From NCBI RefSeq assembly GCF_000426705.1, contig NZ_AUFW01000018.1, forward strand, positions 62,001-126,000: DNA of 64,000 nucleotides. Reading direction: 5' to 3'. The DNA comes from Spirochaeta cellobiosiphila DSM 17781 (GTDB lineage: Bacteria > Spirochaetota > Spirochaetia > DSM-17781). A program made the translations under genes and the position numbers. This document shows positions 18,272-59,766 of the stretch, in pieces; position 1 is the stretch's first letter, and every line of letters begins with the position of its first letter. The notes beneath the pieces are model-generated. The model worked only from the letters and a program-made list of their open reading frames with translations. It was not told where the DNA came from and made no database searches.

Positions 18272-19297
18272 ATGGGATCGATTGTTACCTTAGGAGAAAT
18301 GCTATTGAGACTAAAAAGTCAGGACAATCTCAGACTTTTTCAGACAAATAAATTGGAATCTACCTTTGGAGGTGGTGAAGTCAATATGGCAGTCTCATTA
18401 AGTTTATTGGGAGCATCAACCAGATTTGTTACAGCCTTACCAGACAATATAATTGGTGATAGCTGTATCAATGAACTTCATAAATACCAGATTGATACCA
18501 CAAGCATTGTCAGAACTGGTAAACGAGTGGGAATCTACTACTTAGAAGCTGGTGCGAATCAGAGGGCCACTAAAGTTATCTATGATCGTCAAGATTCCAG
18601 TATTAGTCATGTCACCCATGATGTTTTTAATTGGGATGCAGTATTTCAAAATGCTTCCTGGTTTATTATATCAGGTATCACTCCAGCTCTTTCAGAATCA
18701 GCTGCTGAATTAACAGTAAAAGCAGTTGACGAGGCCAAATCCAGAGGTATACATGTTTGTCTAGACTTTAATCATCGTAAGAATTTATGGAATTATGGTA
18801 AAAACATAGAAGAGGTAATGAGACCTTTGGTAAAAAAAGTAAATGTGATTATAGCCGGTACTTTGGATTGTCAGCAAACCTTGGGGGTGCCCTTAGATTC
18901 AGGGAGGATCAAAGGAGACCTAAATATGGAAGAACTAAAGCAATTAACCTCAAAAGTTATGGCTACTTATGATCTTTCAGGAATAGCTATAACTAAAAGA
19001 GATAATGTATCTGCCAATATAAACAACTGGACAGCATTCTATAATTGTGATGAAGGATTTTATACTAGTACTGAGTATAGGATTAATAATATAGTAGATC
19101 GTGTAGGTGGTGGTGATAGTTTCACCGCTGGTTTAATTTATGGATTAAATTACCTTAATTCACCGAAAGAAGCATTGGACTTTGCAACTGCTTTTAGCTG
19201 TCTAAAATTATCTTGTATGGGTGATTTTAATCTCACTACTCGTGATGATGTTTTAGCTTTGATATCAGGCGACATTTCTGGTCGGATACTGCGTTAA
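18272..19297 (+). CDS. kdgK: PfkB-family sugar kinase, probably 2-keto-3-deoxygluconate kinase
   Basis: This 341-residue ribokinase-fold enzyme has N-terminal TFGGGEVNMA, substrate-lid GIYYLEAGANQRATKVIYDR and the catalytic loop VGGGDSFTAG with the base Asp282. The motif GxYYLExGxxxRxSxVxYDR is characteristic of KDG kinases, which make 2-keto-3-deoxy-6-phosphogluconate for the Entner-Doudoroff or uronate route. Fructokinase or another 2-keto sugar kinase is possible. The ribosome site AAGGAG is good. No KDPG aldolase lies nearby in the window. A strong hairpin follows the stop. Confidence 0.8.
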   Translation: MGSIVTLGEMLLRLKSQDNLRLFQTNKLESTFGGGEVNMAVSLSLLGASTRFVTALPDNIIGDSCINELHKYQIDTTSIVRTGKRVGIYYLEAGANQRATKVIYDRQDSSISHVTHDVFNWDAVFQNASWFIISGITPALSESAAELTVKAVDEAKSRGIHVCLDFNHRKNLWNYGKNIEEVMRPLVKKVNVIIAGTLDCQQTLGVPLDSGRIKGDLNMEELKQLTSKVMATYDLSGIAITKRDNVSANINNWTAFYNCDEGFYTSTEYRINNIVDRVGGGDSFTAGLIYGLNYLNSPKEALDFATAFSCLKLSCMGDFNLTTRDDVLALISGDISGRILR

Positions 19298-19316
19298 TTG
19301 TATTACCTTTCCTTAG

Positions 19317-19352
19317 GCTCCCCCTGGTAGAACCACCTTCTACCGGGGGAGC
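19317..19352 (+). terminator. Hairpin after the sugar kinase
   Basis: GCTCCCCC-T-GGTAGAA and TTCTACC-GGGGGAGC form a 15-pair GC-rich stem with one bulged T and a 5-base loop. The following TATTTCATATT is only moderately T-rich, but the stem is the strongest in this region and sits 20 bases after the stop. Confidence 0.7.
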
Positions 19353-19361
19353 TATTTCATA

Positions 19362-19391
19362 TTGACCCTATTAAGTTATAAGTTTTACTAT
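19362..19391 (+). promoter_or_regulatory. Leaderless-type promoter of the 2-hydroxyacid dehydrogenase gene
   Basis: TTGACC (19362-19367), an 18-base spacer and TACTAT (19386-19391) end 6 bases before the ATG at 19398. No Shine-Dalgarno sequence is present. Transcription should start at or next to the start codon. Confidence 0.55.
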
Positions 19392-19397
19392 TTATCT

Positions 19398-20357
19398 ATG
19401 AAGAATATTGTAGTTTTAGATGGTATAACCATGGGTGATGATATTGATTTCACTTCACTAGAGAAATTGGGACAGGTAACTATCCATAGAATGACTGAAG
19501 AAGAACAGATTATTGATCGTTGTATTGATGCACAAATAATTATCACGAACAAAGTCTTTATTAGGGAATATCATTTTAGAAGTTTGCCCCAACTTGAATT
19601 AATCTGTTTAACTGCTACAGGTTATAACAATATTGATATAGAAAGTGCTCGCAAACATCATGTCTCGATTGCAAATGTATCAGGTTATTCGACCAATGCT
19701 GTAGCACAACATACTTTTGCTATGCTTTTCTACTTATGGGAAAGAAGCAGGTATTTCGATGATTATACACGTAGTGGTGATTATTGCAATAGTGAAATAT
19801 TTACACATTTATCAAGAAAATTTTATGAATTAAGCGGTAAAACCTGGGGTATAGTTGGTTTAGGAGCTATTGGGAAAAAAGTGGCTCAAATTGCAAAAGC
19901 TTTTGGTTGTAATATTATTTACTATTCAACTAGCGGAAAAAATAGTAATCAAGAATATACCAAAGTTGACCTGAAAACCCTATTACATAACTCAGATGTC
20001 ATATCAATTCATTCCCCGTTGAATGATAGAACAAAAGATTTGTTCACCTTAAGAGAGTTACAGCAAATGAAATCTACTAGCTATATTATTAATGTGGGTC
20101 GAGGAGGAATCATTAATGAAGAAGATTTAGTAGAAGCTTTGAATCTAAACCTTATCGCCGCAGCTTGTATTGATGTATTGACAACAGAGCCAATGGCTAT
20201 TTCCAGTCCATATCGAAATATAATTAATAAAGATAAATTATATATTACCCCCCACGTAGCCTGGGCACCCATAGAAACACGACAAAGAGTTATAGAAGAA
20301 GTGACTTTAAATATTCAAGCTTTCTTGAGTAATGAAAAAAGGAATATTGTTAATTAA
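19398..20357 (+). CDS. D-isomer-specific 2-hydroxyacid dehydrogenase
   Basis: This 319-residue cytoplasmic NAD(P)-dependent oxidoreductase has the Rossmann motif GLGAIGKK, NVGRGGIINEEDL with the substrate arginine, TTEPM with the catalytic-pair glutamate, and ITPHVAWAP with the catalytic histidine. These enzymes reduce 2-keto acids such as hydroxypyruvate, glyoxylate or pyruvate to D-2-hydroxy acids; glycerate dehydrogenase is the closest general type, but substrate is not certain. I reject the upstream TTG (19362) because it lies in the -35 box. It stands alone after the kinase hairpin. Confidence 0.87.
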   Translation: MKNIVVLDGITMGDDIDFTSLEKLGQVTIHRMTEEEQIIDRCIDAQIIITNKVFIREYHFRSLPQLELICLTATGYNNIDIESARKHHVSIANVSGYSTNAVAQHTFAMLFYLWERSRYFDDYTRSGDYCNSEIFTHLSRKFYELSGKTWGIVGLGAIGKKVAQIAKAFGCNIIYYSTSGKNSNQEYTKVDLKTLLHNSDVISIHSPLNDRTKDLFTLRELQQMKSTSYIINVGRGGIINEEDLVEALNLNLIAAACIDVLTTEPMAISSPYRNIINKDKLYITPHVAWAPIETRQRVIEEVTLNIQAFLSNEKRNIVN

Positions 20358-21526: not shown

Positions 21527-22000
21527 TCAGCTACCATAAGGTCTTTCGAAGGGCGTTTGACCTTCAATTGTTATAACTATTTCCTTCACAGAAGGGAAGT
21601 TAAAACGTACTGTTTTTTCAATCCCATTGTAGACTTTATCTACATAAGAACTCTGATCCTCGTGACCGAGAATGACGGACTTTGATAAATCCAGATAGAG
21701 TTTCTTATCCCGTAATATGACAGCCTTCAGTTTTGATCCCCGGGGAACTAGCAATGTATTTTGATACTCAGCAGGTCCCAAGAACAGCTCTTTAACTACC
21801 AAACGGATTGCTTCTTCCCGGTCTTTCCTTTGTGGAACATACCGAACTTCTCCAATCAGTTCACGAGAAATCCCTCTAGGAAAAAATAACATCCTCCTAA
21901 CCCTTTTATCGTCGGATATGTTCATAAAAATCACACTAATTATAAGAAAAACAGAAAGAAATGACAAAATTGTCCAAAAAAGCTTTTTATCTTTAATCAC
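21527..22000 (-). CDS. GerMN-domain membrane-anchored protein
   Basis: This 157-residue protein has one N-terminal transmembrane segment (about residues 9-27) and a GerMN domain (about 37-150). Motifs are FFPRGISRELIGEVR, VVKELFLGP, PRGSKLKAV and KLYLDLS. GerMN domains occur in spore germination proteins and in envelope proteins of non-sporulating bacteria; their role is unclear, but association with peptidoglycan enzymes is common. It follows an N-acetylmuramoyl-L-alanine amidase gene by 3 bases, supporting a cell-wall role. It is the last gene of the long operon that begins at 29251. Confidence 0.8.
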   Translation of the reverse strand: MIKDKKLFWTILSFLSVFLIISVIFMNISDDKRVRRMLFFPRGISRELIGEVRYVPQRKDREEAIRLVVKELFLGPAEYQNTLLVPRGSKLKAVILRDKKLYLDLSKSVILGHEDQSSYVDKVYNGIEKTVRFNFPSVKEIVITIEGQTPFERPYGS

Positions 22001-22003
22001 TCA

Positions 22004-23050
22004 TTACTCCGTGAAGGCTTTTGATCGCTCAAAGTATTCCGTAAAATTAACGATGCCATTATAGAGGCCGGTACAGATTTTATTCAAGTACGAATCTTGA
22101 TGTAGTTTTAAGGCTTCTTCTTTGTTACTAATAAAACCTATTTCTACAAGTACTGACGGCATATTGGCTTTACGGACAACATACCAGCTTTCTTCTTTCA
22201 AACCTCTATTATTTGAAGCTTGACCTAGTTGGGATTCCATATTCTCCAATATGTTTTGTGCCAAGATAATTCCTTCAATGAAGAATTGATCTTCCATCAT
22301 GCTATTAAATATTGGGTAATAATCTTTAACCTTTTCCTCTAGACTACTAGGGTCCAAAACTTCTCGTCTATAATCAGTAGGTAAATGCCAAACTTCGAAT
22401 CCAGTAGATTTAGGGTTCAGACTAGCATTCACATGAACTGATATGTATATTATTGCTTGATTAGAAGCTAGATTTTGCTTATTAGCTAACTCTACCCTAT
22501 CTTCCAATGTTGGATAGACATCTTTATTTCTAGTTAACAGAATCTTTTTGTCCGGATACTTCTTTTTCAATCTATTAAATAGATCCAGAGATACTTGCAG
22601 GACAATGTCCTTTTCTTTCATTACCACTTTTTTGTGCTCTATCTCATAAGTTCTCATAGCCCCAGAGTCTTTACCACCGTGCCCCGGATCTATGATAATT
22701 ACTGCTATTTCAGGAGACAAAGTGTTATTTGAATGGTCATTAGTAGTAATCTCACCTAATTGAAAATATTCACGAATCTTACTTTGAGTCCTGTCATCAA
22801 TGATGATCCGCCCATCCTGGATCCTAACATTACTTCCTTCCCATAAGGTTTGCCCCATCAGTAAAAAAGGATTGTTCCATTGTCCATTCAATTGCTTATG
22901 ACTATCAGATAGAGTAAACATATATGATAGGGGCTGAATTAACAATTCTAGTCCATTTTGTTGTGAAAAATATTCTAAATCTACATCAGCCCCAAAAACA
23001 TTTCCTACATATAGTAGAAAAAGAAAAAAAGGGATAATTAACTTACCCAT
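22004..23050 (-). CDS. N-acetylmuramoyl-L-alanine amidase (Amidase_3)
   Basis: This 348-residue exported zinc hydrolase cleaves the amide bond between MurNAc and the peptide stem. It has a signal peptide (to about residue 20, near VFGA-DVD) and a spacer to about 110. The Amidase_3 domain contains IIIDPGHGGKDSG (zinc His), MKEKDIVLQVS (zinc Glu), ISVHVNAS (zinc His) and SVLVEIGFISN (catalytic Glu). It belongs to the AmiC/CwlM group. It lies 9 bases after the ATP-grasp gene and is coupled to the GerMN gene. Flagellar insertion or cell division are plausible uses. Confidence 0.92.
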   Translation of the reverse strand: MGKLIIPFFLFLLYVGNVFGADVDLEYFSQQNGLELLIQPLSYMFTLSDSHKQLNGQWNNPFLLMGQTLWEGSNVRIQDGRIIIDDRTQSKIREYFQLGEITTNDHSNNTLSPEIAVIIIDPGHGGKDSGAMRTYEIEHKKVVMKEKDIVLQVSLDLFNRLKKKYPDKKILLTRNKDVYPTLEDRVELANKQNLASNQAIIYISVHVNASLNPKSTGFEVWHLPTDYRREVLDPSSLEEKVKDYYPIFNSMMEDQFFIEGIILAQNILENMESQLGQASNNRGLKEESWYVVRKANMPSVLVEIGFISNKEEALKLHQDSYLNKICTGLYNGIVNFTEYFERSKAFTE

Positions 23051-23059
23051 ATTGATAAT

Positions 23060-24538
23060 TTACCTTCTTTTCTTCCACCTGTCTATAAACCAAAGGCCCC
23101 CTTGAACACTTCCACGTAAAACAGATTGGCTAAATCCCACTGGTAATACAGCTCCTACTTTTTGAGGTAAACCAGTAATCCTAGATAATTGTTCCAAGGA
23201 TTCACTAAGGCTTCTCCCTTGCCAATCCAGACGTCCTTCAGGTTTCATGTAATAAGGTATAAATTGTAGAAACGCATCCTCTTTTTCAACACATAATGAG
23301 AGAGAAAGAGGGTAATTAGGATGCAAAGGTCTTTTACTACCAAGTAAATATTCATAAGTCAAATCATTGTCTGTATCTAAACGTGGTACGACGCGACTAG
23401 CTAGTTCTTTAGCAGAACGAACATCAGCGCATCTAAAAATGAAATTTATACACTTTTGAACATTGTTAACAGGAAAATGAACATCACTACCCACTGGCTT
23501 TTGAATAAAATGATCCATATACAAATGATCTTTAGTAATCTCGTCTAACCCAATGTAATCAATGACCGTACCTGGTAGACTAATAATGGCTCTCTCCTGG
23601 ATACTCTGATAGCTGTCCGCCTGAGGTTCTTCTGGATTTTTACCTAAAGCCAGGTCCATAGCAACTTCCGTAGGTGATACACCAGAATGATAAGGATACG
23701 TCCACCCAGACATATATCCTCCAGACAATCGAGCAGCGATCTCACCAATATAAGCTTTTCCTTTGTACCATTTTAGATCTCCTTTAGCTGCACCTCTACT
23801 TATACCTAAAGCAAGTGCCGCTTGATGAAGAGCTGTCCATAATTCCTTTTGTACAGCTTCATTAGCATGACTTGGGAAATTGTGACCCATTTCAATAAAA
23901 TAAGGAGGAAACTGAATATCACGATCAGCCAAACCACAAGGAAGGAAATGGCCTTCATAAATAAGGCTATCCAGACTAAACTCAGGACCATCCATATATT
24001 CTTCTACGATGACTTGACCAGAAGCAGAGAAAACAAGGGCTTCAGAAATACCTTGTGATAATTCTTCATCAGAATTAACGAGTATAACTCCCCTAGCACC
24101 CATATTATCAACTGGTTTTACAACAAGAGGAAAAGGAATATCAACCCTATCGTTAGGCGAATAGACTATCCTATATTCCGGCACATTCAGTCCATTTTTT
24201 TTAAGAATCTTACGCATTATTCCTTTGTCTTTGGCACCTAAAGCCACTTCAAAAGGAATACCGGGCAAATCTAAATCTTCTGCTATCCATGCAACAGTAG
24301 TAGAGAAGTCGGTTCCTGCTGTAAACACACCATCTAAGGCATGCAGACGATGTAATTCTCTGGCTTTTAATAAACTAGCATCTCGATCACTAATATCAAT
24401 TGTATAGAATTCATCAGCTTTATCCTTACATACTGCATTTTGATTACCATCAAAAGCTATTGTTTTATAGCCTTTACTTCGAGCAATATCATAAATAGGA
24501 GCTTGCATTGAACCAGCTCCAAGAACAAGTAAAATCAC
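23060..24538 (-). CDS. ATP-grasp ligase of unknown substrate
   Basis: This 492-residue cytoplasmic enzyme has an N-terminal pre-ATP-grasp Rossmann part (LVLGAGSMQAPIYDIARSKGY), the ATP-grasp core (PLVVKPVDNMGARGVI, VIVEEYMDGPEFSLDSL) and the metal-binding GEIAARLSGGYMSG. The organisation is that of carboxylate-amine or carboxylate-thiol ligases such as PurK, CarB-like and amino-acid ligases. The last 180 residues do not resemble a standard partner domain. The gene overlaps the PseG/methyltransferase fusion by 4 bases, which suggests it adds a carboxylate group, perhaps an amino acid, in sugar-nucleotide or glycan modification. Substrate not assignable. Confidence 0.75.
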   Translation of the reverse strand: MILLVLGAGSMQAPIYDIARSKGYKTIAFDGNQNAVCKDKADEFYTIDISDRDASLLKARELHRLHALDGVFTAGTDFSTTVAWIAEDLDLPGIPFEVALGAKDKGIMRKILKKNGLNVPEYRIVYSPNDRVDIPFPLVVKPVDNMGARGVILVNSDEELSQGISEALVFSASGQVIVEEYMDGPEFSLDSLIYEGHFLPCGLADRDIQFPPYFIEMGHNFPSHANEAVQKELWTALHQAALALGISRGAAKGDLKWYKGKAYIGEIAARLSGGYMSGWTYPYHSGVSPTEVAMDLALGKNPEEPQADSYQSIQERAIISLPGTVIDYIGLDEITKDHLYMDHFIQKPVGSDVHFPVNNVQKCINFIFRCADVRSAKELASRVVPRLDTDNDLTYEYLLGSKRPLHPNYPLSLSLCVEKEDAFLQFIPYYMKPEGRLDWQGRSLSESLEQLSRITGLPQKVGAVLPVGFSQSVLRGSVQGGLWFIDRWKKRR

Positions 24539-26220
24539 TTAATTTTTTCTCCATAAACTTCAAAAGTATCGCCTAGTCCAAATATTTGACTCACGGCAGA
24601 CTTAAAAGGTATACACTTAGGAAATCTTTCAGGATGGTGTCCTGTAATCCTAATATGTCTAACTTTAAAGCCATAATCCATTAAAATCTTTTTACATAAA
24701 GAAGGTTCCCAAATAGTAAAATGATCGTCTGGGCTAGCTTGTAAAAAATTTTTCAGATTTATTTTTCGACTGATTCCTTCTCCATTTGGTGTCGAAAAAC
24801 AAAAGAATCCACCTAAAGGAAGAAGCGACCTAACTTTATTAAGAAGAGCACGCAAATCCCTGAAATGCTCAATAACATACCACATCGTAACCCCTTGTAA
24901 CTCTATATTCCGATTCCAATCTAATATATTGTCTTGATAAGCTTCTATTCCAAGACCTTTTGTCACATAATCTACAGCATCTTGAGCTATATCCATACCG
25001 ACCGGGTTAAAACCCTGATCTTTTAAAGCCTTTACAAAGGGTCCATAAGCACATCCAATATCTAATACATTCTTTTTTTCATCTATAGTCCAAAATTTTT
25101 TTATAATTTGGATACGATCTAAACCCATTTTATGTATATGTTCAAAATCATCGAGATAGGTTTTTCCATATTGCTTTTCATAATCTTTAAAGAAATAATC
25201 CTTTGAATAAATCTTTTCTTTCTGTCCTAAGTAATTCAAATATAAAAAACCGCAATCACTACAGCGATAATAGTTTTTGACAGGGAAACGTTGTAGAACT
25301 CGTGCATTATTACTATGACAATGGGGGCAAGTATTCATGGTTATATTTAACTCTCCTATTAACTGTTTGATTGATCTATGATTTTTAAAAGAATCTTTCC
25401 ATATACCTTCAGGAACCTCTAGATCATTCCATAATTGATAAAATTTTTTCTCTGTTGGTATAGACTGACCTAATGAAGGAATCCCCTGCATTTTTGTAAT
25501 TTCTTCATGATAAGAAGAAGGATTTAAAGCCAAAACAGGTGTGTTATTAGCCAAACTATTAATCAAAGTCAAACCATAACTCATTATACCTCTACTATAA
25601 TCACTAACTTTGTTATCTAAGTCTTTTATATAAGATAGGATTTCCCATTTATGCGGAAGGATATCAGGTTTATTCTCTGAAAGGTCTTTACTTATCCAGG
25701 TGACCTTTGTTTTCTTTAGTGGCCAAGAGAGAGCCTCATAATAAAGCTGCCGTGTTAATTGCTGATGATCTTCACCACCTAGAAAAACTAAAACTCCCTT
25801 ATCGTGTTGCCCGTTTCCTTTTTTAATATTCCAAGATACTTGTATGCTGTTAGCCTGATAGATAAAGGGAGGAATCGTATCAACGACATATTGAGCCCAA
25901 TATCTAAGTTCGGTATTACCTTCATCCAAAGCAACTAAAGGACCATGATTTCTCCATAAATGATAATCATCTAAAGGACACTCTCTTTGGTCCATTATTA
26001 TAATATCACCTTCTATAGGGTCCCTTATTATATGAGCTTTATCAATAAGTTCCGGAAACCGTTCGTTCCAATAATCTAGTCCATATTTATCTTTCGTAGT
26101 CAATAGAGGTATGTAAATATACCAATGATACTTAGCTGACCATCGAAGACAACGTACTAAATGACCGGTCCCATTATCCTTCCTTATAGAAGGAACAAGT
26201 ACTACTGTTGAATCAACCAA
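24535..26220 (-). CDS. PseG-like glycosyltransferase-fold domain fused to zinc-ribbon SAM methyltransferase
   Basis: This 561-residue fusion has an N-terminal part (about 1-290) matching PseG-type UDP-sugar hydrolases of the GT-B fold: GTGHLVRCLRWS (PseG GTGHxxRCL), GVLVFLGGEDHQQLTRQ (VSFGGSDP region) and TLINSLANNTPVLAL. A four-cysteine ribbon follows (TCPHCHSN, YRCSDCGFLYL). A class I SAM methyltransferase comes last, with motif I VLDIGCAYGPFVKAL and motif GMDIAQDAVDYV, plus MWYVIEHFRDLRALL. PseG removes UDP in pseudaminic acid synthesis; other Pse genes are absent, so the substrate is probably different. It overlaps the SpsF-like gene by 19 bases and the ATP-grasp gene by 4. Confidence 0.78.
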   Translation of the reverse strand: MVDSTVVLVPSIRKDNGTGHLVRCLRWSAKYHWYIYIPLLTTKDKYGLDYWNERFPELIDKAHIIRDPIEGDIIIMDQRECPLDDYHLWRNHGPLVALDEGNTELRYWAQYVVDTIPPFIYQANSIQVSWNIKKGNGQHDKGVLVFLGGEDHQQLTRQLYYEALSWPLKKTKVTWISKDLSENKPDILPHKWEILSYIKDLDNKVSDYSRGIMSYGLTLINSLANNTPVLALNPSSYHEEITKMQGIPSLGQSIPTEKKFYQLWNDLEVPEGIWKDSFKNHRSIKQLIGELNITMNTCPHCHSNNARVLQRFPVKNYYRCSDCGFLYLNYLGQKEKIYSKDYFFKDYEKQYGKTYLDDFEHIHKMGLDRIQIIKKFWTIDEKKNVLDIGCAYGPFVKALKDQGFNPVGMDIAQDAVDYVTKGLGIEAYQDNILDWNRNIELQGVTMWYVIEHFRDLRALLNKVRSLLPLGGFFCFSTPNGEGISRKINLKNFLQASPDDHFTIWEPSLCKKILMDYGFKVRHIRITGHHPERFPKCIPFKSAVSQIFGLGDTFEVYGEKIK

Positions 26221-26870
26221 TGCTGTAAATCCTCGAAACTTATAGGTTCTTTATGATACAAGGAGTTAAATATTTTCTTTATATAGTCATAGTCTTCCTG
26301 AGTATCCATAGTTACAGAACTATTCCACAAACGATATCTAACATCAACAAGTGGTTTGTGGATTCTAAACTTATCCGGATTCTCATAGAGATAAGGCATA
26401 ACATGTTCGCGATGATAAGGTTGTGTGCTTTCCGTCCAGGCCCTCTTTAAGGCAGAGGCCTTAACAACTTCTACACCAGTACCAATAGGAAGACCTTGAT
26501 AACCGCAGTAATCGGCGTCCTTTAATTGCCTTTGTTCAATAGCTTTGATAGCCCATTCATAACTGACAAGAGGATTGTCGCCCGTAGCACGTATTATCTC
26601 TTCTACTTCATAAGTTAATGAAGCTTTATAGTATCTGTCCAAAACATCACTCTTACTCCCAATATAGAGATCCCAGCCCTCATTATTAACAATATCTGCT
26701 AATGCGGATTGGGAATCTTCCGTTGTCAACACTACATGATAATCTGTTGGAATTAAAGATAAACTTCTCATGGCATGAACAACTGCTGGAATACCCATAA
26801 TAGGTTTTAAGGCTTTATTCGGTAATCTTGTAGAATCTAAACGCACCTGTAAGAAAACAGCATTACTCAT
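26202..26870 (-). CDS. SpsF-type cytidylyltransferase (CMP-sugar synthetase family)
   Basis: This 222-residue GT-A-fold nucleotidyltransferase belongs to the SpsF/CMP-KDO-synthetase group. It has N-terminal FLQVRLDSTRLPNKAL (nucleotide-binding RxxSxRLPxK), YIGSKSDVLDRYY, and the metal-binding ATGDNPLVS. PIGTGVEVVKASAL and HVMPYLYENPDKFRIH match SpsF proteins. It should activate an acidic or modified sugar as a CMP derivative. It overlaps its neighbours by 8 and 19 bases. It is presumably a step in glycan synthesis encoded by this operon. Confidence 0.85.
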   Translation of the reverse strand: MSNAVFLQVRLDSTRLPNKALKPIMGIPAVVHAMRSLSLIPTDYHVVLTTEDSQSALADIVNNEGWDLYIGSKSDVLDRYYKASLTYEVEEIIRATGDNPLVSYEWAIKAIEQRQLKDADYCGYQGLPIGTGVEVVKASALKRAWTESTQPYHREHVMPYLYENPDKFRIHKPLVDVRYRLWNSSVTMDTQEDYDYIKKIFNSLYHKEPISFEDLQHWLIQQ

Positions 26871-27825
26871 TATTTGCTCCCCACAACTCTACTACATTGC
26901 GCGAGTCTCTCATGAACCTATATTTATATAATTCGACCCATTTTCTGGTATTCATAAATAATTGCCAATCATGATACAGTTGTCCTTTAAGACCAAACAA
27001 GAAAGGCAACAGATTGTTCATATGTATAATACCATGATCTCCTTGATAGGATACGGCAAGGTTTTTTAGGTAAAAAAGTTTATATTCCTGATCTAAAGTT
27101 GTATCTTCCTGAAAGCTGTCCTCCATATAACTAAATCGTAGTTCACGTCCCCAGCGAATGCTCTTCCCCCACATATAAGCTCTAAATCCAAAATCCATCC
27201 TTTGCCAGTAAGAATTAGCAAATCGAACATCAAAACCTCCTAGTTCTATATAGTCATCTTTGTTGTACAGCCCAATATAATCAAAAGGATATAAGGTTGA
27301 GAAATCATTACCGCCAGGTGTGAGAAATAGTGTTTTAAGTTGTTTTTTGTAGTTAGCAGGAGCAACAAAAGAAGGGAGGAGTTCTTCTTTTGAATTAAAT
27401 AATTGAGGCACCATACATAACTCTTTGTGCTTGATTAGACGATCAAAAATCTTATCTGTCATCAGATGAGGACGTATTTGAAGATCATTCCACACCACCA
27501 AAGCATAAGGTGCTTTTATTTCTAGAAAGGCGATATTTAAAGCTTCTCCAACAGAAATAACTTTAGGAATATTTACAAAACGTAATCGATTATAAGAGGA
27601 TGATAATTCCTCAAGGTCAGTATGTATTTTATTTATTTCAATAGATAAGATTTCACTGAAACAAAGTCGATGTAGTTCTTCAAAGTAATCTTTTCTGAAC
27701 GGGGCACCTCCTCTACTGAGAACAATTAAGGCAGGATTATTATTACTATCTTGTAATGTGAGATCACCAATTACTGTATACACAGTGTTCTCATTCTTAA
27801 AAGTTGAATGTATAATATTCATCAC
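26863..27825 (-). CDS. GT-A-type glycosyltransferase-like protein
   Basis: This 320-residue cytoplasmic protein resembles family-2 glycosyltransferases. It has an N-terminal strand/nucleotide region (PALIVLSRGGAPF), NIPKVISVGEALNIAFLEIKAPYALVVWNDLQI (a D-x-Q in place of the usual DxD), and then a galactosyltransferase-C-like GGFDVRFANSYWQRMDFGFRAYMWGK. It overlaps the spiro-SPASM gene by 29 bases. An in-frame ATG one codon in (27822) is an equal start. Donor and acceptor are unknown; a role in decorating a surface or flagellar component is inferred from the operon. Confidence 0.7.
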   Translation of the reverse strand: MMNIIHSTFKNENTVYTVIGDLTLQDSNNNPALIVLSRGGAPFRKDYFEELHRLCFSEILSIEINKIHTDLEELSSSYNRLRFVNIPKVISVGEALNIAFLEIKAPYALVVWNDLQIRPHLMTDKIFDRLIKHKELCMVPQLFNSKEELLPSFVAPANYKKQLKTLFLTPGGNDFSTLYPFDYIGLYNKDDYIELGGFDVRFANSYWQRMDFGFRAYMWGKSIRWGRELRFSYMEDSFQEDTTLDQEYKLFYLKNLAVSYQGDHGIIHMNNLLPFLFGLKGQLYHDWQLFMNTRKWVELYKYRFMRDSRNVVELWGANNE

Positions 27826-29251
27826 ATTCCTTACATAATGAGGGATATTTTTTATTTACTTGAAGCTGATAATACTCATCACCTTTATTCCAAATATTAG
27901 TTAGGTTGTCGTTGAATATATTACCGAGAACAAAATCTCCTTCAAAGGAATCCTTACAGGGCAGACCAGAGCCATCAACCATAAAATACAATTCCCGTTT
28001 AACATGCCAACAAACTCTTCTTATTAAAGGAGATAAATCAGTCACTTTTCGCTCTTTTAATCGATGACTATAGTGATTATATTTTTGAATAATAATATTC
28101 TCTGTTTTCTCTCGCCATCGACGAAAGAAAGGTTCGAGATGCTCTTCATATTCTTGGAGCCTTGTTACCTGAATATAGAACTCATTAGGATTGTGGGTAA
28201 GCATATAATCACAAAATTGAATAGCCGCATCTAATTTACAGCCACGTATTTTTTCATATAAAGAAGGAACATCAGAATCAAGATAAAGAATCCACTTTAA
28301 TCTAGGAATTGATCCTCCTTTATATAATTCATTTAATAAATCTATATCCCAGGAGGTTCCATTCGTTTCAATAACTAGTTCAATCGTTGGAAATCCCAGA
28401 GTCATCCTAATAATGTCATAAATATGGGGATGTAAAGCCGGTTCCCCCCATAAACCCAAGGTAATAACAGCCTTCGGAGTTAGTCCAACTATACCTTCAA
28501 GAATTGTTTGCCATTGATCTATTGCTATATGCTTTTGCGATTTTAAATGATCAGGAAATTTCTTGTAATAGATATCATATTCCGGATCTTGATTATTGCC
28601 TTGATATATCTGAAAGACATAATGAGAGGGTAAACCTCTTAACAGATATTGATATTCTTCTAAATGATTAATAATTTTTTCATGGTCTTCATTAGTTGCA
28701 GCAGCCAATCGCTCAGCAACAGTAAAATTTTGTAGATTATTACATGTAAGATTTAAACGCAAATATCGATAGTCTATCCCAGATATCTTTGTTTCTATAT
28801 CAAAGGAGTTGATATCAATCATTAAGGTTTCAAAAAAACTATTTCGTTCTATACTTCGCTCTTTCTTCGCTAATTTTTCTAATTGAGGAAGTATAGAAAC
28901 GGATATTATTTCGGGAGAGAGTCCAATGGGATATCCATCAGCAAAACTATATTCTGCAAAATATTTAAAATGGTTATCTAACATCTCCTTAGTTAGATTG
29001 CTATCATAGAAAGGTGAATCGCTAAAACAGTACAAGATAGCATCATAACCTTGTGATATTTCCATCAGCTTTCTTAATAATTCGTCGAACGTTTTTATAT
29101 TTTCTTCTAATGTCTCTACACCTGTTACTTGTTCCAGATCTTTGATATAAGAAAGAACCCTATCAAATGAAGAATCCCCCTTGTTAAACGATTGATGGAT
29201 TAATTGTTGATTGAATCCTATGTTATTAATTACTGCTAATATTTTCATCAT
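27797..29251 (-). CDS. Spiro-SPASM protein: nucleotidyltransferase-like N-domain plus radical-SAM/SPASM-like C-domain lacking the cluster motif
   Basis: This 484-residue protein leads the seven-gene operon. Residues 1-200 resemble the GT-A nucleotidyltransferase fold: YCFSDSPFYD at 74-83 corresponds to the DxP metal motif, and ADGYPIGLSPEI at 104-115 matches the PIGTGVEV region of the SpsF protein two genes on. Residues 208-410 look like a radical-SAM barrel: GLWGEPALHPH (266-276) is its GGEP-type motif. Yet the first strand (PSHYVFQIYQGNNQ) has no CxxxCxxC, so no canonical 4Fe-4S/SAM site is visible. A SPASM-type end follows with Cys414, Cys432, Cys473 and Cys476 and LGNIFNDNLTNIWN. Spiro-SPASM proteins are known as a spirochaete-restricted family; function unknown. 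Confidence 0.82.
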   Translation of the reverse strand: MMKILAVINNIGFNQQLIHQSFNKGDSSFDRVLSYIKDLEQVTGVETLEENIKTFDELLRKLMEISQGYDAILYCFSDSPFYDSNLTKEMLDNHFKYFAEYSFADGYPIGLSPEIISVSILPQLEKLAKKERSIERNSFFETLMIDINSFDIETKISGIDYRYLRLNLTCNNLQNFTVAERLAAATNEDHEKIINHLEEYQYLLRGLPSHYVFQIYQGNNQDPEYDIYYKKFPDHLKSQKHIAIDQWQTILEGIVGLTPKAVITLGLWGEPALHPHIYDIIRMTLGFPTIELVIETNGTSWDIDLLNELYKGGSIPRLKWILYLDSDVPSLYEKIRGCKLDAAIQFCDYMLTHNPNEFYIQVTRLQEYEEHLEPFFRRWREKTENIIIQKYNHYSHRLKERKVTDLSPLIRRVCWHVKRELYFMVDGSGLPCKDSFEGDFVLGNIFNDNLTNIWNKGDEYYQLQVNKKYPSLCKECDEYYTFNF

Positions 29252-40919: not shown

Positions 40920-43900
40920 TTATTTCCTTTGTATTCCTAATATGGTTAGATCGTCATACTGTTCATCTTCTTTAATGTATGAATAATATCTGTATTCCTG
41001 TAAATCAGTATAATCAAGCGGATAACCAAAATATTCTTCATATTGAACAAAATGCTCTCTTAAAAAATCATCTACTTTCACATCAATCCTTATTTTATCA
41101 TTAATAGAGGCTTTTGGATCGGGATATAACCTGAAAACCTTCTCCAATGAGACCATGGCTAAAACGACTTCTTGAATAGTACCATTGCAACTTGAAAAAT
41201 CAAAGTCCAAAGGAGAATCCTCACCTAAAGGATTGTGATACTTAAATAATTGATATTTTTGTCGATTCATTACAGAATCTATGACTTGATGTAGACGTTC
41301 CAAACTAAACTCTTCTGTATCTTTACCTGCCAAGTGTGTAATTAATGTACCTTCTCTTTGATGATCAGGATTACTACACACTTCGATCTCATATTTAGAA
41401 TTTCTTAAATGGCGTTGTGCCTCTTCGAGTCCATCTGTAAAGAAAAATAACATATCACCACGATTAAGTATAATCTTTTGTTGCTTAAAACCACTCTGCA
41501 TTTCTACTAGCATTGATGGAAATACTCCTGCGGCAGGTGTTTCAGTCATATGTTTTTGGTAACTAATGCCTTTTTGAGCGTCCCATCCATGAATTGTTTT
41601 ATCTCCAGCATGACAAAAATAGGCTTCACCAGTTCTGATATTTAATATCCCCAAATTGAATGCGGCAAAGCGTCCTTTAAATCCTCTTTCTTCTAAGAGA
41701 TCATTTATCCTATAAACTAGAGGAGGCAAATTAACTTTTTGTTTTGTATTATACTCACGAAAATGATTAAGAAATATAGTAGCAACTTCTACCATAATAA
41801 GGGAAGCAGGAACACCTTTTCCAGCAACATCACATTTAATTAATGCGTAATGTTCATTATCTAATTTTCGATAATCAAAATAATCACCCGAGACCCCCTT
41901 AGCCCCTTCATAATACCCAAAAAAGTCAGCATACTTTGTAGATTCCCCACCAGTTGTCATTTTACGCCCAGAATCATCCGAATCTAAGGGAATAAACATT
42001 TTTTGCACTTCTTTACCAACAGTTAATTCTTTGTTAGCTTCTGCAGCTTTTACCAAACCTTTTGTCATTTGATTTATAGTCTGAGCTAAGAGTTCTAGTT
42101 CGTCTTTTGAAGTAATATCTATCTTATGGTTTTTAAGTTCACTCTTATCTTCTGTATCCCTTATTATTTCTATTCCTTTAACAAGTTTTTTAATGGGATT
42201 TACAGTTATTGAAGAGAGTATAATAGAGCCAACTATTCCTAATGTTATGGCAATAAGAGCTATTATACCTGTTCGTTTGATTAGCTCATTTCGGCTTGCC
42301 CTGATTTCTTCCCTTATACGTTCAGTGGATACAACAACACGTACTGTTCCTCTATAATAAGTATCTTCCCCTCTTCTAGCATAAGTTATGGGTTTGTAGA
42401 ATAAATACGATGGAATACTTAGATCTAAGTGTTCTGTATCAAAATTAGGATAGGTGCCTGTATATTTTGATAAATTATCAAGAATATTATTTCTCAAACT
42501 ATCTAATTCATATATCTGATCAAATAAATCACTTCTAATCCTAGTTGAATTTTGATCAGTTCCAGTATGAAGACTCGCTTCTTGAGTCAATCTATCGATC
42601 TCAGAGGATATATCTTGTAATGAAGCCTTTCCTTCCTGGTTTATCCTTAAAGCTAAGTCATTAATCTGATTAGTTATTTCATCTTCATAGGTACTTATTC
42701 CTTGAACATAATTATCTGTATTAATATTATCTTTGAGATAGGAGCTATCAAAGTTACTTACACCCCATACATGATTATATTCAGAACGGTTTTCACGACC
42801 AGGTCCAGTTATTACACTAAATTGGGCATCTGACATAGCTGACATTTGCTGAGGAATGAGACTCAATTCCAGCTCGCTTTCTGAAGGCAAATAATTAGAA
42901 GCGGACTTAGAAAATCCTGTCATCAGAACTTCAGCTTGTTGTTTCAAAGCACTGGCAAGATTTTCTTGTTGATTACCAATCATGAAAAAACCTAGTGCTA
43001 ACGAAATCATCAATAATACTGTTGTCAGCAAAATGAGAATAGAGAAAGCAAACTTGAATCTTAATCCGAAACCTTTACGCTTCAATTCATTAATCCTTGT
43101 TCTTTTTTCTTCGGCAGAAAGATGTCCTTTCTGTACGAGGATAAGCATATCACCGGCTAATCTATTTTCTTTTATAGGATAGACAAATATTTGACCAAAA
43201 CTAAAAAGAGTCACTATTGCCAATAAACACAATATTACAATAGATACTAAATAATTCGCATTTAAAACAAAACGATGTTGGGGAAGAGAGATAAAACCAG
43301 GTTCTTCCCAGGAGAAATCTCCAAATTTTACAGTTCCTGAAGGCTGAATATAAAGATAGGATTTAGCAAAATAGGTTCCTCTTCTTGGATGAACTAACCC
43401 AATTCTATATTTTCCCTCAGGGATATCACTTATAACTAGATCTCGTATTTGTTTATCTGAACTAATTTGGTAAGAACCATCAGATATATTATAAGTATAA
43501 TCGAAAGGAGCAATACCATCCCGGTCTAAGTAGATAGAAGAAACAGCCCCACCTTCAAGAAATCCCCTTCCAATAATATGAATAGAGATTCTACCAAAAT
43601 CATCCTGGTTTGAATCAATCCAGGAGATATAAGTTACTGGTTGATATTTATTAACTCGAAATAAAGTGGAGGCAATGGGTCCACTATTACCTACAGAGTC
43701 AAAAGCCTTGACCTTTAAGGCATATAAACCATTATCCATATTATTAAAAGTGATAGACCCTTTTTTATTATTAATAATAGTGCCAGGATCTGTACCTGAA
43801 AAACTAGGATTTATGATTGTACTAGGCTCTCCTAAATAATTAAGCTTGTAACTATAACCTTGTAGATAGGGTTCATTGATTGTCCAATTAATTTTAGGTG

Positions 43901-45446
43901 AATTATTGATGAGAAAGCCTTCATTATCATAATCAAGCTTACTAAATTTAACCATAGGTGGTGATGTAGTATCTCTGTATACAGAGAGAACCTTTTCTTC
44001 AGACCAATTACCAGCATAGTCTTTTGCTCTTATGTGGAAGTACCATTCACCATCTTCATCAGCAATGAATTTTCCTTGATTTTGATTATTTAAATAAGTT
44101 AAAACAGGAGGAACACTATCATCCGGATTTTGATTCCATAAGAAATTGTATCCTTCAATTCCACTTGAGTCAGGTGGAACTGACCATTGTATTTGATAAG
44201 TACTCAAACGACTTCTTTCAGTATTTTTAAAATTAACCGCTCTTGGGACAGGTGCAGACACAGACCTATCAGGCTCCAGTTGATATATACGGATAATGTT
44301 CCCTTGAGTATTCTCCCAAAACACAAAAATATCATTCTCATCATGTACAATTTTTGGAAAAGTTGAAGTTCCACTAATAATACTCAAATCACTGATTTTC
44401 CATGTGTACTCTTCTTTTGTTCCTAACTTTATATGGAAATCACCCTTTTGATTGTCAAACCAAAGGATATTTAACTTTTGTTTGAATTCAAAAAGTTGAG
44501 GTCCACCACTAGTATATAAACTACGAGTGACAGATTCCCAATTTTCTATTGTTTGATTGGCGATTATTCCAATATAAATTTGATTTGGATTACTTAATAA
44601 GTTTCTTTCCCATGAAATATAGAGAATTCCTCCATAGCTATATATATTGGGTCTCTGATTATTGTAGTTTGATGAATCATCGTTTTTACTTTTCCCATCA
44701 GAAAAATTAGTAATCCATTGACTGTTAGACCAACTTTGACCACCATCTTCAGAAGTTTTCATGTATAGTTGATAATTGGCCCTTTCCCCTGAATGTTGTG
44801 ATTGAAACACAATATAGTCCTTTCCATTATGCTGGGTTCCATAAGGACTAAAATTTAAATTTAGATTTTCATCATCCTTTATAAGAGCTTGAGGAGAGGT
44901 CCAACTACTACCACTACTTGTATATGTATAAAAGATGCTAATACTCGTTTCGAATCCTTGGCTAAATAATAGATACATTCCCTTTTGGGAAGTGAATATT
45001 TTAGGAGATAGAGCATCAGTACCTGTTGAGATTAGGCTGATTTCTTTAAATTCGATATTATCATAATCAGAATGAAGGATAGCGATAATACTATCACTTT
45101 TTATGTAGGCAATATAAATACCATTATCATTCAAGGTTAGACTAGCTATAGGACTTTCTTCTCCAAAGTAAGGAATATTATTAATGATGTTATTAAACTT
45201 TTTCCATGATTGCCCTTTCTTTTTAATTGCTATCGAAAGATTTAAATCACCATTATTACTGTTTGCGTTGGAAAAATCCTGCCATAGCAAAGCAAATGTA
45301 CCGTTGTATGAATCAACCATAGGAAAGCGACTTCTATTCCCAGCAAAACTTTCAGGGTTTTCCCAGTAATATTCTTGTCCATAAATCAAAGATCCTGTAA
45401 TGAGTAAAAAAATGAAAATGATTCCTTTTATAGATCTATGTATCAT
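40920..45446 (-). CDS. Giant transmembrane sensor phosphatase: beta-propeller, Ig-like region, HAMP, SpoIIE/PP2C domain
   Basis: This 1508-residue protein starts with a signal peptide. Next is a sialidase-type beta-propeller (about 25-390) with an Asp-box (SEDGGQSW) and sialidase-like LLWQD/ISWERN strands, then fibronectin/Ig-like repeats (about 400-700, for example WYFHIRAKDYAGNWSEE). Membrane helices lie near 732-755, 799-823 and 1057-1080, with a second periplasmic domain between the last two, followed by HAMP. A SpoIIE/RsbU-type PPM phosphatase (about 1165-1400) has the metal aspartates in SGDYFDYR, CDVAGKGVPAS and FFTDGLEEAQ. Such phosphatases dephosphorylate anti-sigma antagonists; none is encoded nearby. 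It overlaps the TPR lipoprotein gene by 4 bases. Confidence 0.88.
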   Translation of the reverse strand: MIHRSIKGIIFIFLLITGSLIYGQEYYWENPESFAGNRSRFPMVDSYNGTFALLWQDFSNANSNNGDLNLSIAIKKKGQSWKKFNNIINNIPYFGEESPIASLTLNDNGIYIAYIKSDSIIAILHSDYDNIEFKEISLISTGTDALSPKIFTSQKGMYLLFSQGFETSISIFYTYTSSGSSWTSPQALIKDDENLNLNFSPYGTQHNGKDYIVFQSQHSGERANYQLYMKTSEDGGQSWSNSQWITNFSDGKSKNDDSSNYNNQRPNIYSYGGILYISWERNLLSNPNQIYIGIIANQTIENWESVTRSLYTSGGPQLFEFKQKLNILWFDNQKGDFHIKLGTKEEYTWKISDLSIISGTSTFPKIVHDENDIFVFWENTQGNIIRIYQLEPDRSVSAPVPRAVNFKNTERSRLSTYQIQWSVPPDSSGIEGYNFLWNQNPDDSVPPVLTYLNNQNQGKFIADEDGEWYFHIRAKDYAGNWSEEKVLSVYRDTTSPPMVKFSKLDYDNEGFLINNSPKINWTINEPYLQGYSYKLNYLGEPSTIINPSFSGTDPGTIINNKKGSITFNNMDNGLYALKVKAFDSVGNSGPIASTLFRVNKYQPVTYISWIDSNQDDFGRISIHIIGRGFLEGGAVSSIYLDRDGIAPFDYTYNISDGSYQISSDKQIRDLVISDIPEGKYRIGLVHPRRGTYFAKSYLYIQPSGTVKFGDFSWEEPGFISLPQHRFVLNANYLVSIVILCLLAIVTLFSFGQIFVYPIKENRLAGDMLILVQKGHLSAEEKRTRINELKRKGFGLRFKFAFSILILLTTVLLMISLALGFFMIGNQQENLASALKQQAEVLMTGFSKSASNYLPSESELELSLIPQQMSAMSDAQFSVITGPGRENRSEYNHVWGVSNFDSSYLKDNINTDNYVQGISTYEDEITNQINDLALRINQEGKASLQDISSEIDRLTQEASLHTGTDQNSTRIRSDLFDQIYELDSLRNNILDNLSKYTGTYPNFDTEHLDLSIPSYLFYKPITYARRGEDTYYRGTVRVVVSTERIREEIRASRNELIKRTGIIALIAITLGIVGSIILSSITVNPIKKLVKGIEIIRDTEDKSELKNHKIDITSKDELELLAQTINQMTKGLVKAAEANKELTVGKEVQKMFIPLDSDDSGRKMTTGGESTKYADFFGYYEGAKGVSGDYFDYRKLDNEHYALIKCDVAGKGVPASLIMVEVATIFLNHFREYNTKQKVNLPPLVYRINDLLEERGFKGRFAAFNLGILNIRTGEAYFCHAGDKTIHGWDAQKGISYQKHMTETPAAGVFPSMLVEMQSGFKQQKIILNRGDMLFFFTDGLEEAQRHLRNSKYEIEVCSNPDHQREGTLITHLAGKDTEEFSLERLHQVIDSVMNRQKYQLFKYHNPLGEDSPLDFDFSSCNGTIQEVVLAMVSLEKVFRLYPDPKASINDKIRIDVKVDDFLREHFVQYEEYFGYPLDYTDLQEYRYYSYIKEDEQYDDLTILGIQRK

Positions 45447-48442
45447 AATTGAGAGTCAATTCGCTCCTGTAATTCTAATAAGGGAGAGTATTTGCGATTA
45501 TTTGCATCCTCCATCAACCTATCAACAATAAGTTTAGCCTCTAACAAACGTCCCTGAGTAAATTTTTCTACAGCTTCTCGGTACTGTTGTTGCGCTAAAC
45601 TGGACAAGGTTAAAGAGGTTCTCTCTCCTGCTTCTACACGTAAACGATCTAACAATCTGACAATATTCTGGTTATCAGGGTCAAGCTCATTGGCTTTTTT
45701 TAATTGTGATAATGCTACAGGGAATTGTGCAGATATATTACGCTGAACTATAGCATAAGCTTGATCATATAAAGCTTTGGCCTGCCTTATAGATTGAGGG
45801 TCAGGTTCGGGAACTCTAATGCCTAATAATATCTCAACTCTATAAATAGTATCTTTTAATCCTGGAAATTGAGAATTAATTTCTCTGAGATCTGTTAAAT
45901 CAATATAGGCTTGTCGAGGATCTGCGCTTATCTCATTTTGGGCCTGCTGAAATTTTTGTTTAAATAATTCACCAAAAGCGTCTGCGTCTTTGATTTGTAA
46001 TATCCGCAATGACAAAATACTCACCTCTTGATTAAGAGGAAAGGGCAATCTTACTTTTGTAATTTTATCTTCAGCATCCTCTAACAGTCTAAGAGCATCA
46101 ACGCGCTGATTCTGATTAAGCATTTTTTTTGCTCCTTCAAAATCTTCCCAAGCCAAGTTTAATAATTGTCGTATTTCAGGATAAAGCGGATCTGTAACAG
46201 GGATATCCCTTCCCGTCTGTACACTAAGGGCTGTCCTGCTCAAACTTAACCAACGTTCTATTTCATTATTCTCTTCTGTACTTACAGATGACCACAGATT
46301 TTGAGCTCTAACAAGAACTTCTTCAGCTTGACCAAACGAGGATTGTAGATAGAAAGATTTACCTTTATTGATATCTTCACGAACTTGAACGACTGCGATT
46401 TTAAAACGTTCATCTATAATTCGTTTAGATAAAGAATTCACAAGTTCATCAATCTCTTCTCTAAAAGTAATATTTTCCTGAATATCAAGTGAGTCCAAAA
46501 ACTTATCTCGTGCAAGTTCTATTTGTTGTTCAGCATTGTCAAAATCTAAATTTCTTAAAGACGTCTCTGTTTGCTGGATTCTAAAATATCCCTCATTCTT
46601 TAATTTAGTTGCAGTAAAAATCTGTTCTTCTGCTTGAGTTATTAAATTAGCTCTTTGAATTTGAAATGACCTCAATTGATCTATATCTTTATTAAGGGTA
46701 TTAATCCATTGGATCATGTTAGCATCAGTCTGTATGTAATCATCTTTATCTTCAATTCGGCTTTGTAACTTAACCAGCTCTGAAATAACATCATTTAAAG
46801 AATCATTTTCCTGTATCAGAATGTCTCTAGAACGATCAGGATAATGTGATACTATTTGTTGACTTCCATTATTAATACTTTGAGGTACTCCTTCTAGGTA
46901 ATTAACAGCTTGAGATAATTGTTTCTCTCTTTGATTGATTTTGGGTTCTAGAGTTTTATATACTAAATCAATTTCTTTTAAACTCAGATCAATAGCCCTG
47001 TTTTGCCATAAAGAATATTGAATATTGATATCTCTTTCTAAATTTGTATATATAGTATTATATTCATTTAAGGTAACAAAAGCCCCTTTATTTAATTGGG
47101 TCCACTGATTTTTCTCTAATCGCAACCGTTCTTTTAATGAGCCAAGATCACTCAATAATTTACTTACTTGTTCTTGCTTTTGAACAACCGATTCTTCTGT
47201 GTCTAAGGAATTCAAAGCCAATGCTTCTTGCTGGTTTGCAATTTGAATCACTGATAAGTACTCTTTACCTAGTTCATTATGAGCTTTAACTAAATATTGT
47301 AAAGGTAAGTATTTAATCACTAGTTTTTTATCTTTGTCAAATATATTATATTGGTCTTTTAACAAGACCCTACTATTCCAAAGATTTAAAATACTATGAT
47401 CTATATCATAATTATCAAGTAAATCTTCAAATTTTCTTAATCCATCTGTATACTGCCCAAGTTCAAAGGCGTTAACCCCTGACGCATATAGCTTGTCACT
47501 CCTTTCAATTATTATCTGGCTTATCTCTTCCAAACTTTTATCATGATAACGCTCAATAACTCCTAACATCCCTTCTCTGTAGTCAACCAGTTCTCTTCCT
47601 TGTGTAAATAATTCAGCATAACTTAAAAAGAAATCTGGAGAGTTATCAGTTGAATTACTTTTAATTATCTGATTTTGTTCACTAAATACTAGTGCAGCTT
47701 CTTGAACTCTTCTTCTTAACTGTTGGATTTCCTGTATTTGCTCTATATAACGATTAATTGAAGTGGGGTCTAATGACTTAACTTCAGTCGCAACCTTTTC
47801 ATAATTACCTAACTGATTTAGAAATGTGGTAATTGCTTTGTTCATATCATCCAAAGAAGCGATTACCATATTTTTGATAAGGTCTCCATAAGGATTTTCA
47901 TCAAATTCAAATCGATGTAGCTCATAACCTTCAGAATATATGGCAACAGCTCTTTGATAATTATTTTTATCTAGTTCGATTAAAGCATTGGCCATTATCT
48001 CCCTAAATCTTTTTCTAGAAACGACCAACTCAACGTTTCTTTGGGCTCGATTGATAAAAGCTGTGGTTTCCTTGTTGGGGTTCTTATCACGATTTTTCAT
48101 TTCTGCAATACTTTCTCTTGCAGCCTCAGCATCTTCATTAGCTAAATGATCCAAAGTTTCATAAGCCAAATCGACGTATTCACTTCTAAGTTTTTCGATT
48201 TTTTGAATATAAGGAATGGCCTGATCTCGACGATCAGGATAATTCTCAACCATTTCAGAGAGGACAAGTAGAGCTTCATTTAACTGTTGATTATTAATAT
48301 ACTCTTTTGCTAAAGCAATGGATTCTTTTGGCGATAGCTCTCCTGATGAGGTTTCTTGAGTACCACCACAATACAAAGGTCTACCAAGAACCATAATAAA
48401 GGAGAAAAACAATAAATTGAACGATTTTCCAAAGTTTATCAA
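45443..48442 (-). CDS. Large TPR / coiled-coil lipoprotein
   Basis: This 999-residue protein has a signal with lipobox-like RPLYC (Cys25, then GGTQE). The N-terminal half carries TPR-like helices (KEYINNQQLNEALLVLSEMVENYPDR; YSEGYELHRFEF), the middle is long alpha-helical coiled coil, and further TPR units follow at the end (AQFPVALSQLKKANELDPDNQNIVRLLDRL; EKFTQGRLLEAKLIVDRLM). It starts at a TTG, the only plausible start after an in-frame stop. It heads the operon and directly precedes the giant sensor phosphatase, so a scaffold or ligand-presenting role in the periplasm is likely. Confidence 0.83.
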   Translation of the reverse strand: MINFGKSFNLLFFSFIMVLGRPLYCGGTQETSSGELSPKESIALAKEYINNQQLNEALLVLSEMVENYPDRRDQAIPYIQKIEKLRSEYVDLAYETLDHLANEDAEAARESIAEMKNRDKNPNKETTAFINRAQRNVELVVSRKRFREIMANALIELDKNNYQRAVAIYSEGYELHRFEFDENPYGDLIKNMVIASLDDMNKAITTFLNQLGNYEKVATEVKSLDPTSINRYIEQIQEIQQLRRRVQEAALVFSEQNQIIKSNSTDNSPDFFLSYAELFTQGRELVDYREGMLGVIERYHDKSLEEISQIIIERSDKLYASGVNAFELGQYTDGLRKFEDLLDNYDIDHSILNLWNSRVLLKDQYNIFDKDKKLVIKYLPLQYLVKAHNELGKEYLSVIQIANQQEALALNSLDTEESVVQKQEQVSKLLSDLGSLKERLRLEKNQWTQLNKGAFVTLNEYNTIYTNLERDINIQYSLWQNRAIDLSLKEIDLVYKTLEPKINQREKQLSQAVNYLEGVPQSINNGSQQIVSHYPDRSRDILIQENDSLNDVISELVKLQSRIEDKDDYIQTDANMIQWINTLNKDIDQLRSFQIQRANLITQAEEQIFTATKLKNEGYFRIQQTETSLRNLDFDNAEQQIELARDKFLDSLDIQENITFREEIDELVNSLSKRIIDERFKIAVVQVREDINKGKSFYLQSSFGQAEEVLVRAQNLWSSVSTEENNEIERWLSLSRTALSVQTGRDIPVTDPLYPEIRQLLNLAWEDFEGAKKMLNQNQRVDALRLLEDAEDKITKVRLPFPLNQEVSILSLRILQIKDADAFGELFKQKFQQAQNEISADPRQAYIDLTDLREINSQFPGLKDTIYRVEILLGIRVPEPDPQSIRQAKALYDQAYAIVQRNISAQFPVALSQLKKANELDPDNQNIVRLLDRLRVEAGERTSLTLSSLAQQQYREAVEKFTQGRLLEAKLIVDRLMEDANNRKYSPLLELQERIDSQL

Positions 48443-58131: not shown

Positions 58132-58404
58132 ATGGAAAAGAGAATAGGAATACTAGCAATACTTGTAGAAACTAAGGAATGTATACCGAGTTTAAATAAA
58201 ATTTTAGGCCAATACTCGGATATAGTCCTAAGTCGACAAGGACTACCCTTACCTCAATATCACATCAATCTCATATCTATAATGGTAAAAGGAACAAACG
58301 ATCAAATAGGCGCTTTGTCTGGAAAATTAGGTAGATTGCCCGGGTTAACAGTAAAATCTGTTTTAACTAAATTTCGGGAGAATAGTGATGAGAGTAGATT
58401 TTGA
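58132..58404 (+). CDS. TM1266-type iron-only hydrogenase system regulator
   Basis: This 90-residue ACT/NikR-C-like protein has EKRIGILAILVETKE, SRQGLPLP, HINLISIMVKGTNDQIGALSGKLGRLPGLTVKS. The family is annotated as a putative regulator of iron-only hydrogenase genes and commonly precedes hydG/hydE. I start at ATG 58132 with AAAGGTG upstream; the in-frame GTG at 58123 is part of that ribosome site. It overlaps hydG by about 17 bases. Confidence 0.88.
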   Translation: MEKRIGILAILVETKECIPSLNKILGQYSDIVLSRQGLPLPQYHINLISIMVKGTNDQIGALSGKLGRLPGLTVKSVLTKFRENSDESRF

Positions 58405-59761: not shown

Positions 59762-59766
59762 TTCAT

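Follow-up and report, generated by a model that had tools for sequence, protein, structure and literature searches.

Among the closest described systems is flagellin glycosylation in Treponema denticola, whose FlaB proteins bear a glycan of 450.2 Da (Kurniyati 2017) that is indispensable for assembly and motility (PMC9481697), with glycosylation sites in the sequences VEVSQL and DRIAS (PMC7431986). The mass of this O-glycan fits an acylated, methylated nonulosonic acid (NulO), as proposed here, and T. denticola possesses the same NeuB, Maf and spiro-SPASM/glycosyltransferase (GT)/SpsF-PseG-methyltransferase (MT) genes as the organism studied here; it differs in that its ATP-grasp gene lies elsewhere and its SpsF is fused to PseG-MT. 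To our knowledge, no genes have been assigned to the addition of the acyl group in this species. In Bacillus subtilis, the Sps legionaminic acid pathway (SpsM/C/D/G/E/F) combines an SpsF-type CMP synthetase with an SpsG/PseG hydrolase working on UDP-linked precursors, and both are also found here (PMC7439481). However, the Sps target is the spore crust whereas the target proposed here is flagellin, the SpsD acetyltransferase step has no counterpart, and the block studied here adds ATP-grasp, methyltransferase, spiro-SPASM and flaA genes. The Pse pathway of Campylobacter jejuni and Helicobacter pylori (PseB-C-H-G-I-F) with Maf resembles our proposal in its general scheme and in the transfer to flagellin by Maf, but here no PseH was detected above the cut-off, PseG is fused to a methyltransferase, and SpsF stands in place of PseF.

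Here we analysed a window of Spirochaeta cellobiosiphila, i.e. the whole stretch of 64,000 nucleotides, in which a sequence-only reading had proposed a sugar-modification operon. In our view this gene block is likely dedicated to the second half of a spirochaete flagellin O-glycosylation pathway, which makes and activates an N-acylated NulO and places it on FlaB.

A packed gene block next to flaA

Seven ORFs are packed on the minus strand of the window (29251-21527); four neighbouring pairs overlap, by 29, 8, 19 and 4 bp, and two are separated by 9 and 3 bp. The gene for FlaA, the flagellar filament outer-layer (sheath) protein (21472-20423, minus strand; PF04620, 5e-76), starts 54 bp past the seventh ORF and closes the conserved block. 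All of the seven tightly overlapping genes that the sequence-only reading had placed beside flaA were present.

The first ORF (27797..29251, minus strand, as are all that follow) encodes a spiro-SPASM protein (TIGR04321), which by profile, motif and model comprises a degenerate cytidylyltransferase, a radical-SAM-like barrel without CxxxCxxC and a four-cysteine SPASM domain. The second (26863..27825) encodes a glycosyltransferase-like protein. It has no Pfam match of its own, but three of 46 homologues match Glycos_transf_2 and its AlphaFold model (pLDDT 86.2) adopts a GT-A fold, with polypeptide GalNAc-transferases as the closest solved folds (TM about 0.6), in agreement with the GT-A transferase named from the sequence. 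The third (26202..26870) is an SpsF-type CMP-sugar synthetase (CTP_transf_3, PF02348, 6e-26), in which RLDSTRLPNK corresponds to the motif RxxSxRLPxK; its STRLPNK meets SxRxPxK, which is kept in 81 of 96 SpsF proteins.

The fourth ORF (24535..26220) joins a PseG/SpsG-like UDP-sugar hydrolase part to a zinc-ribbon class I methyltransferase (Methyltransf_23). Such a fusion had been suggested beforehand, and its PseG half is backed by the catalytic histidine motif GxGHxxR (here GTGHLVR), kept in 97 of 101 homologues, but less so by the profile TIGR03590, to which it is a remote relative only (12.7 bits, E 0.07, under the 153.55-bit cut-off). The last three ORFs encode an LAL-like ATP-grasp carboxylate-amine ligase (23060..24538; Pfam ATP-grasp), our proposed substitute for PseH, a predicted secreted N-acetylmuramoyl-L-alanine amidase (22004..23050; Amidase_3) and a predicted membrane-anchored GerMN domain protein (21527..22000; Germane). 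In the scan of the seven ORFs CTP_transf_3, Methyltransf_23, ATP-grasp, Amidase_3 and Germane each exceeded the Pfam cut-off, which upholds the corresponding earlier assignments. An Rfam scan of the window gave zero matches.

A KDG-kinase-like PfkB protein and a D-2-hydroxyacid dehydrogenase are encoded on the other strand (18272-20357) and converge on flaA. As a source of the acyl acid these two were rejected, since they occur near the block in only 3/180 and 0/180 loci, respectively. Elsewhere the window holds two very long neighbouring ORFs (40920-48442), one of 1508 aa containing a SpoIIE phosphatase domain and one of 999 aa with no Pfam match, and also the FeFe-hydrogenase maturation genes for a Radical SAM/BATS protein and HydF (58385-63321).

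Conservation of the block across Spirochaetota

Approximately 78 regions from most families and 80 named GTDB loci were sampled. The GTDB loci were retrieved with an alignment query; a single window protein as query gave no match. Of 393 genomes sampled from the phylum, 320 contained a TIGR04321 match, which exceeded the cut-off in 291. The complete order SPASM-GT-SpsF-PseG/MT-ATP-grasp-amidase-GerMN-FlaA was found in 66 of the 157 loci compared, a count that takes in six loci with an SpsF-PseG-MT fusion and one in which flaA is split, while many of the incomplete loci break off at a contig end or lie outside the class. Outside the class the arrangements were SPASM-SpsF, SPASM alone, or SPASM-SpsF-PseG/MT-amidase-GerMN-FlaA. 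The neighbours that the block has in the window are not kept beside it elsewhere (180 loci). As flanking genes vary while the order of the block persists, selection seems to hold the block together. Conservation of the gene neighbourhood had been set beforehand as a check on the operon, and the full order in these 66 loci bears the operon out.

Genome G165, which we take to be T. denticola ATCC 35405, and genome G056 both retain the first part of the block with SpsF-PseG-MT fused and the ATP-grasp gene elsewhere. The amidase and FlaA genes, like ATP-grasp, do not adjoin spiro-SPASM in T. denticola and T. pallidum, which counts against the proposed pathway unit. Identification of G056 as T. pallidum fits the map position of its SPASM protein, TPASS_0285 (listed in PMC4403809). 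In four treponeme loci of termite-gut type (L145, L153, L159 and L180), SPASM-GT-SpsF-amidase-GerMN-FlaA is kept and PseG/MT and ATP-grasp are absent from the block, which suggests a simpler glycan or relocation of these genes.

The spiro-SPASM protein

The window protein covers nearly the full TIGR04321 model (461.8 bits, cut-off 250). No literature on spiro-SPASM function was found, and in the sources consulted TIGR04321 is an established family to which no function is assigned. The structure model (pLDDT 90.8) shows an N-terminal cytidylyltransferase fold closest to 6oew of Leptospira, and a radical-SAM/SPASM fold resembling the radical SAM-SPASM enzymes BtrN and anSME. Unlike these enzymes, and differing in this respect from the family it otherwise resembles over almost the whole model, the window protein has no CxxxCxxC, with N, P and D at those positions. 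Radical SAM chemistry is hence not expected, and the reading of spiro-SPASM as a functional radical SAM enzyme in S. cellobiosiphila was rejected. The CMP-sugar synthetase motif SxRxPxK is likewise missing from the N-terminal domain in 150 of 155 spiro-SPASM proteins, the window member included. The nucleotidyltransferase/SPASM fusion read from the sequence thus stands as a family assignment, but neither an intact nucleotidyltransferase motif nor CxxxCxxC goes with it.

Across the family, CxxxCxxC is retained in 111 of 155 proteins; if it is ancestral, the tree of these proteins implies 19 to 21 losses. The SPASM cysteines C413, C431, C472 and C475 are conserved in 155, 154, 155 and 155 of the 155, respectively. 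Repeated loss of the one motif while the SPASM site stays fixed speaks for a shared role without need of radical chemistry. Probably spiro-SPASM acts as a partner protein that does no catalysis or does so only occasionally. It may serve SpsF or the GT as a scaffold, and a role as scaffold or regulator would be the simplest reading of these motif patterns. Approximately 20 independent losses of the radical SAM site beside a practically invariant SPASM site are an unusual evolutionary pattern, raising the question of what the SPASM site does without radical chemistry.

Nonulosonic acid genes outside the block

The sequence-only reading held that the standard pseudaminic/legionaminic genes were missing and that the sugar should therefore be a different one. 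This was overturned by the genome-wide search, which detected two NeuB, one PseC-like, one PseB-like and four Maf proteins (PF01973, MptE-like), all encoded outside the block. One NeuB (about 360-400 aa, with a SAF domain) is conserved across the class. The second (L113, 7504-9548; G000:C10) lies in a polysaccharide cluster, next to a fusion of a cytidylyltransferase and a KDN-9-phosphatase-like domain, and this cluster is a predicted separate sialic/KDN-type pathway. As this NeuB belongs to another polysaccharide cluster, presence of NeuB alone is not specific. The PseC-like aminotransferase gene adjoins that of the PseB-like dehydratase in 8 of 12 pathway genomes, the window genome (G000:C27:72910-75079) among them. 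The PseB and PseC equivalog cut-offs were exceeded in no searched spirochaete and the PseI cut-off of 340.25 bits was not reached (229.7 bits), hence we name the sugar neither pseudaminic nor legionaminic.

Lineages without a flagellum and Borrelia-like genomes have lost the pathway along with the operon. A strong NeuB match was present in all spiro-SPASM-positive genomes searched (46/46), as was Maf (41/41). The 13 genomes without a good spiro-SPASM match (f12, n = 9; f9-g13, n = 3; G363) possess no flagellin and no Maf, with merely distant NeuB matches in f12; those of their relatives that have flagellin also have spiro-SPASM. Borrelia-like genomes (f5) have flagellin and lack spiro-SPASM and Maf, and searches for NeuB and PseC in two of them gave no match for either. 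Two MAGs (G317 and G321) contain flagellin and Maf with only weak spiro-SPASM matches, which are probable candidates for assembly gaps.

Flagellins were gathered by phmmer and aligned for acceptor sites. The FlaBs of most pathway genomes, including the window genome, G165 and G056, keep the serines of VEVSQL and DRIAS, the exceptions being single paralogues in G078, G026 and G317. In all six Borrelia-like FlaBs these serines are replaced by Glu and Asp. Conservation of the acceptor serines points to FlaB as the target. In one FlaB copy of G317 (L255), whose genome has a weak spiro-SPASM match, the second acceptor serine is replaced by Glu.

The ATP-grasp ligase and the acyl group

PseH was found above the cut-off in none of 17 genomes, with no PseH match of any kind in G056, while the ATP-grasp gene was found in all 14 genomes tested. 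The window protein matches ATP-grasp_4 (1e-10) and, weakly, LAL_C2 (0.0096; up to 2e-18 in orthologues), and among solved structures it comes closest to 4dim and the L-amino acid ligase 3vot. Three families, f30, f35 and f26, have orthologues in which the ligase is joined to an FMN-dependent 2-hydroxyacid dehydrogenase domain. The closest stand-alone relative found of this domain is encoded in G056 (L073, 14841-15719), downstream of the glycan block with one gene between. These fusions and the G056 neighbourhood provide independent support for a hydroxy acid as the predicted substrate of the ligase.

The T. denticola glycan is reportedly a monoacetylated Pse-type NulO with an N7 2-methoxy-4,5,6-trihydroxyhexanoyl group. 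The residue mass computed from this formula, 450.185, matches the published 450.2 Da and thereby supports the structure. As a methoxy-hydroxyhexanoyl group requires an amide-forming enzyme and an O-methyltransferase, the extra genes of the block could supply both.

Proposed pathway and alternatives

From gene content, order and co-occurrence, motif conservation and loss, and acceptor-site conservation, all of them observed, we infer every enzymatic step and the acyl group as follows. The unlinked PseB-like dehydratase and PseC-like aminotransferase would convert UDP-GlcNAc to a UDP-4-amino-4,6-dideoxy sugar. In place of PseH, the ATP-grasp ligase would then form an amide between the 4-amino group of this sugar (the future N7) and a small hydroxy-carboxylic acid, the acyl part being O-methylated, and so capped, by the fused methyltransferase. 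The fused PseG-like domain would remove UDP, the unlinked NeuB would condense the sugar with phosphoenolpyruvate, and SpsF would produce CMP-NulO. Finally, the unlinked Maf transferases would place the NulO onto the conserved serines of the FlaB core flagellins, with FlaA, the sheath protein that would meet the glycosylated core, co-encoded. The earlier idea of activation, trimming, methylation and carboxylate addition to an acidic sugar with a flagellar link thus gains support from the conserved neighbourhood, as far as these presumed steps go.

The amidase and GerMN genes belong to the conserved block and could mark an envelope role, in which case the product of the operon, a NulO or a similar acidic sugar, would go into a glycan of the cell wall or outer sheath and the linkage of the operon to flaA would be incidental; Leptospira express NulOs as well, with their clusters studied as surface sugars (PMC3438082). 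However, loss of the operon follows loss of flagellin in three lineages, non-flagellated relatives retain their envelope but not the operon, and Borrelia-like genomes lose the pathway, Maf and the FlaB acceptor serines together, hence we regard an envelope glycan as improbable. FlaA itself, the target favoured by the sequence-only reading, has in its favour that flaA closes the block across the class, but is a very improbable substrate in view of the conserved FlaB serines. In cryo-EM of Leptospira, furthermore, FlaB1 carries densities resembling glycans where core and sheath meet (PMC13144727), and according to the title of Wyss 1998, as it stands in the reference list of the same paper, the glycosylated proteins in T. 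pallidum and oral spirochaetes are the flagellins and not those of the sheath. A sheath protein co-encoded with glycan enzymes would be consistent with a glycan at the core-sheath interface.

Within the flagellin pathway itself, the ATP-grasp enzyme may attach an amino acid instead of a hydroxy acid, giving a peptidyl-sugar. The LAL_C2 domain and the closest solved relatives, 3vot among them, make such a substrate conceivable, but fusion to and neighbourhood with the FMN-dependent 2-hydroxyacid dehydrogenase speak against it, as does the T. denticola glycan mass, which fits a methoxy-hydroxy acyl group, and on balance we think it unlikely. We therefore favour the N-acylated NulO on FlaB with a hydroxy-acyl group. 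A bolder version is offered tentatively, and we lean slightly towards doubting it. In this version spiro-SPASM would be a pseudo-enzyme with a dead cytidylyltransferase, a radical-SAM barrel repeatedly without its cluster and an invariant SPASM metal site. Although without catalysis of its own, it would be an indispensable subunit of a flagellin NulO pathway spanning the phylum, and the hydroxy-acyl group bridging flagellar core and sheath would be added in this pathway by an ATP-grasp ligase instead of an acetyltransferase.

Our proposal would tie the chemistry of spirochaete flagellin glycosylation to a specific, conserved gene set and puts forward a candidate for the missing N-acylation enzyme. 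This gene set also covers genes of T. pallidum which are annotated merely as "hypothetical" or "SPASM".
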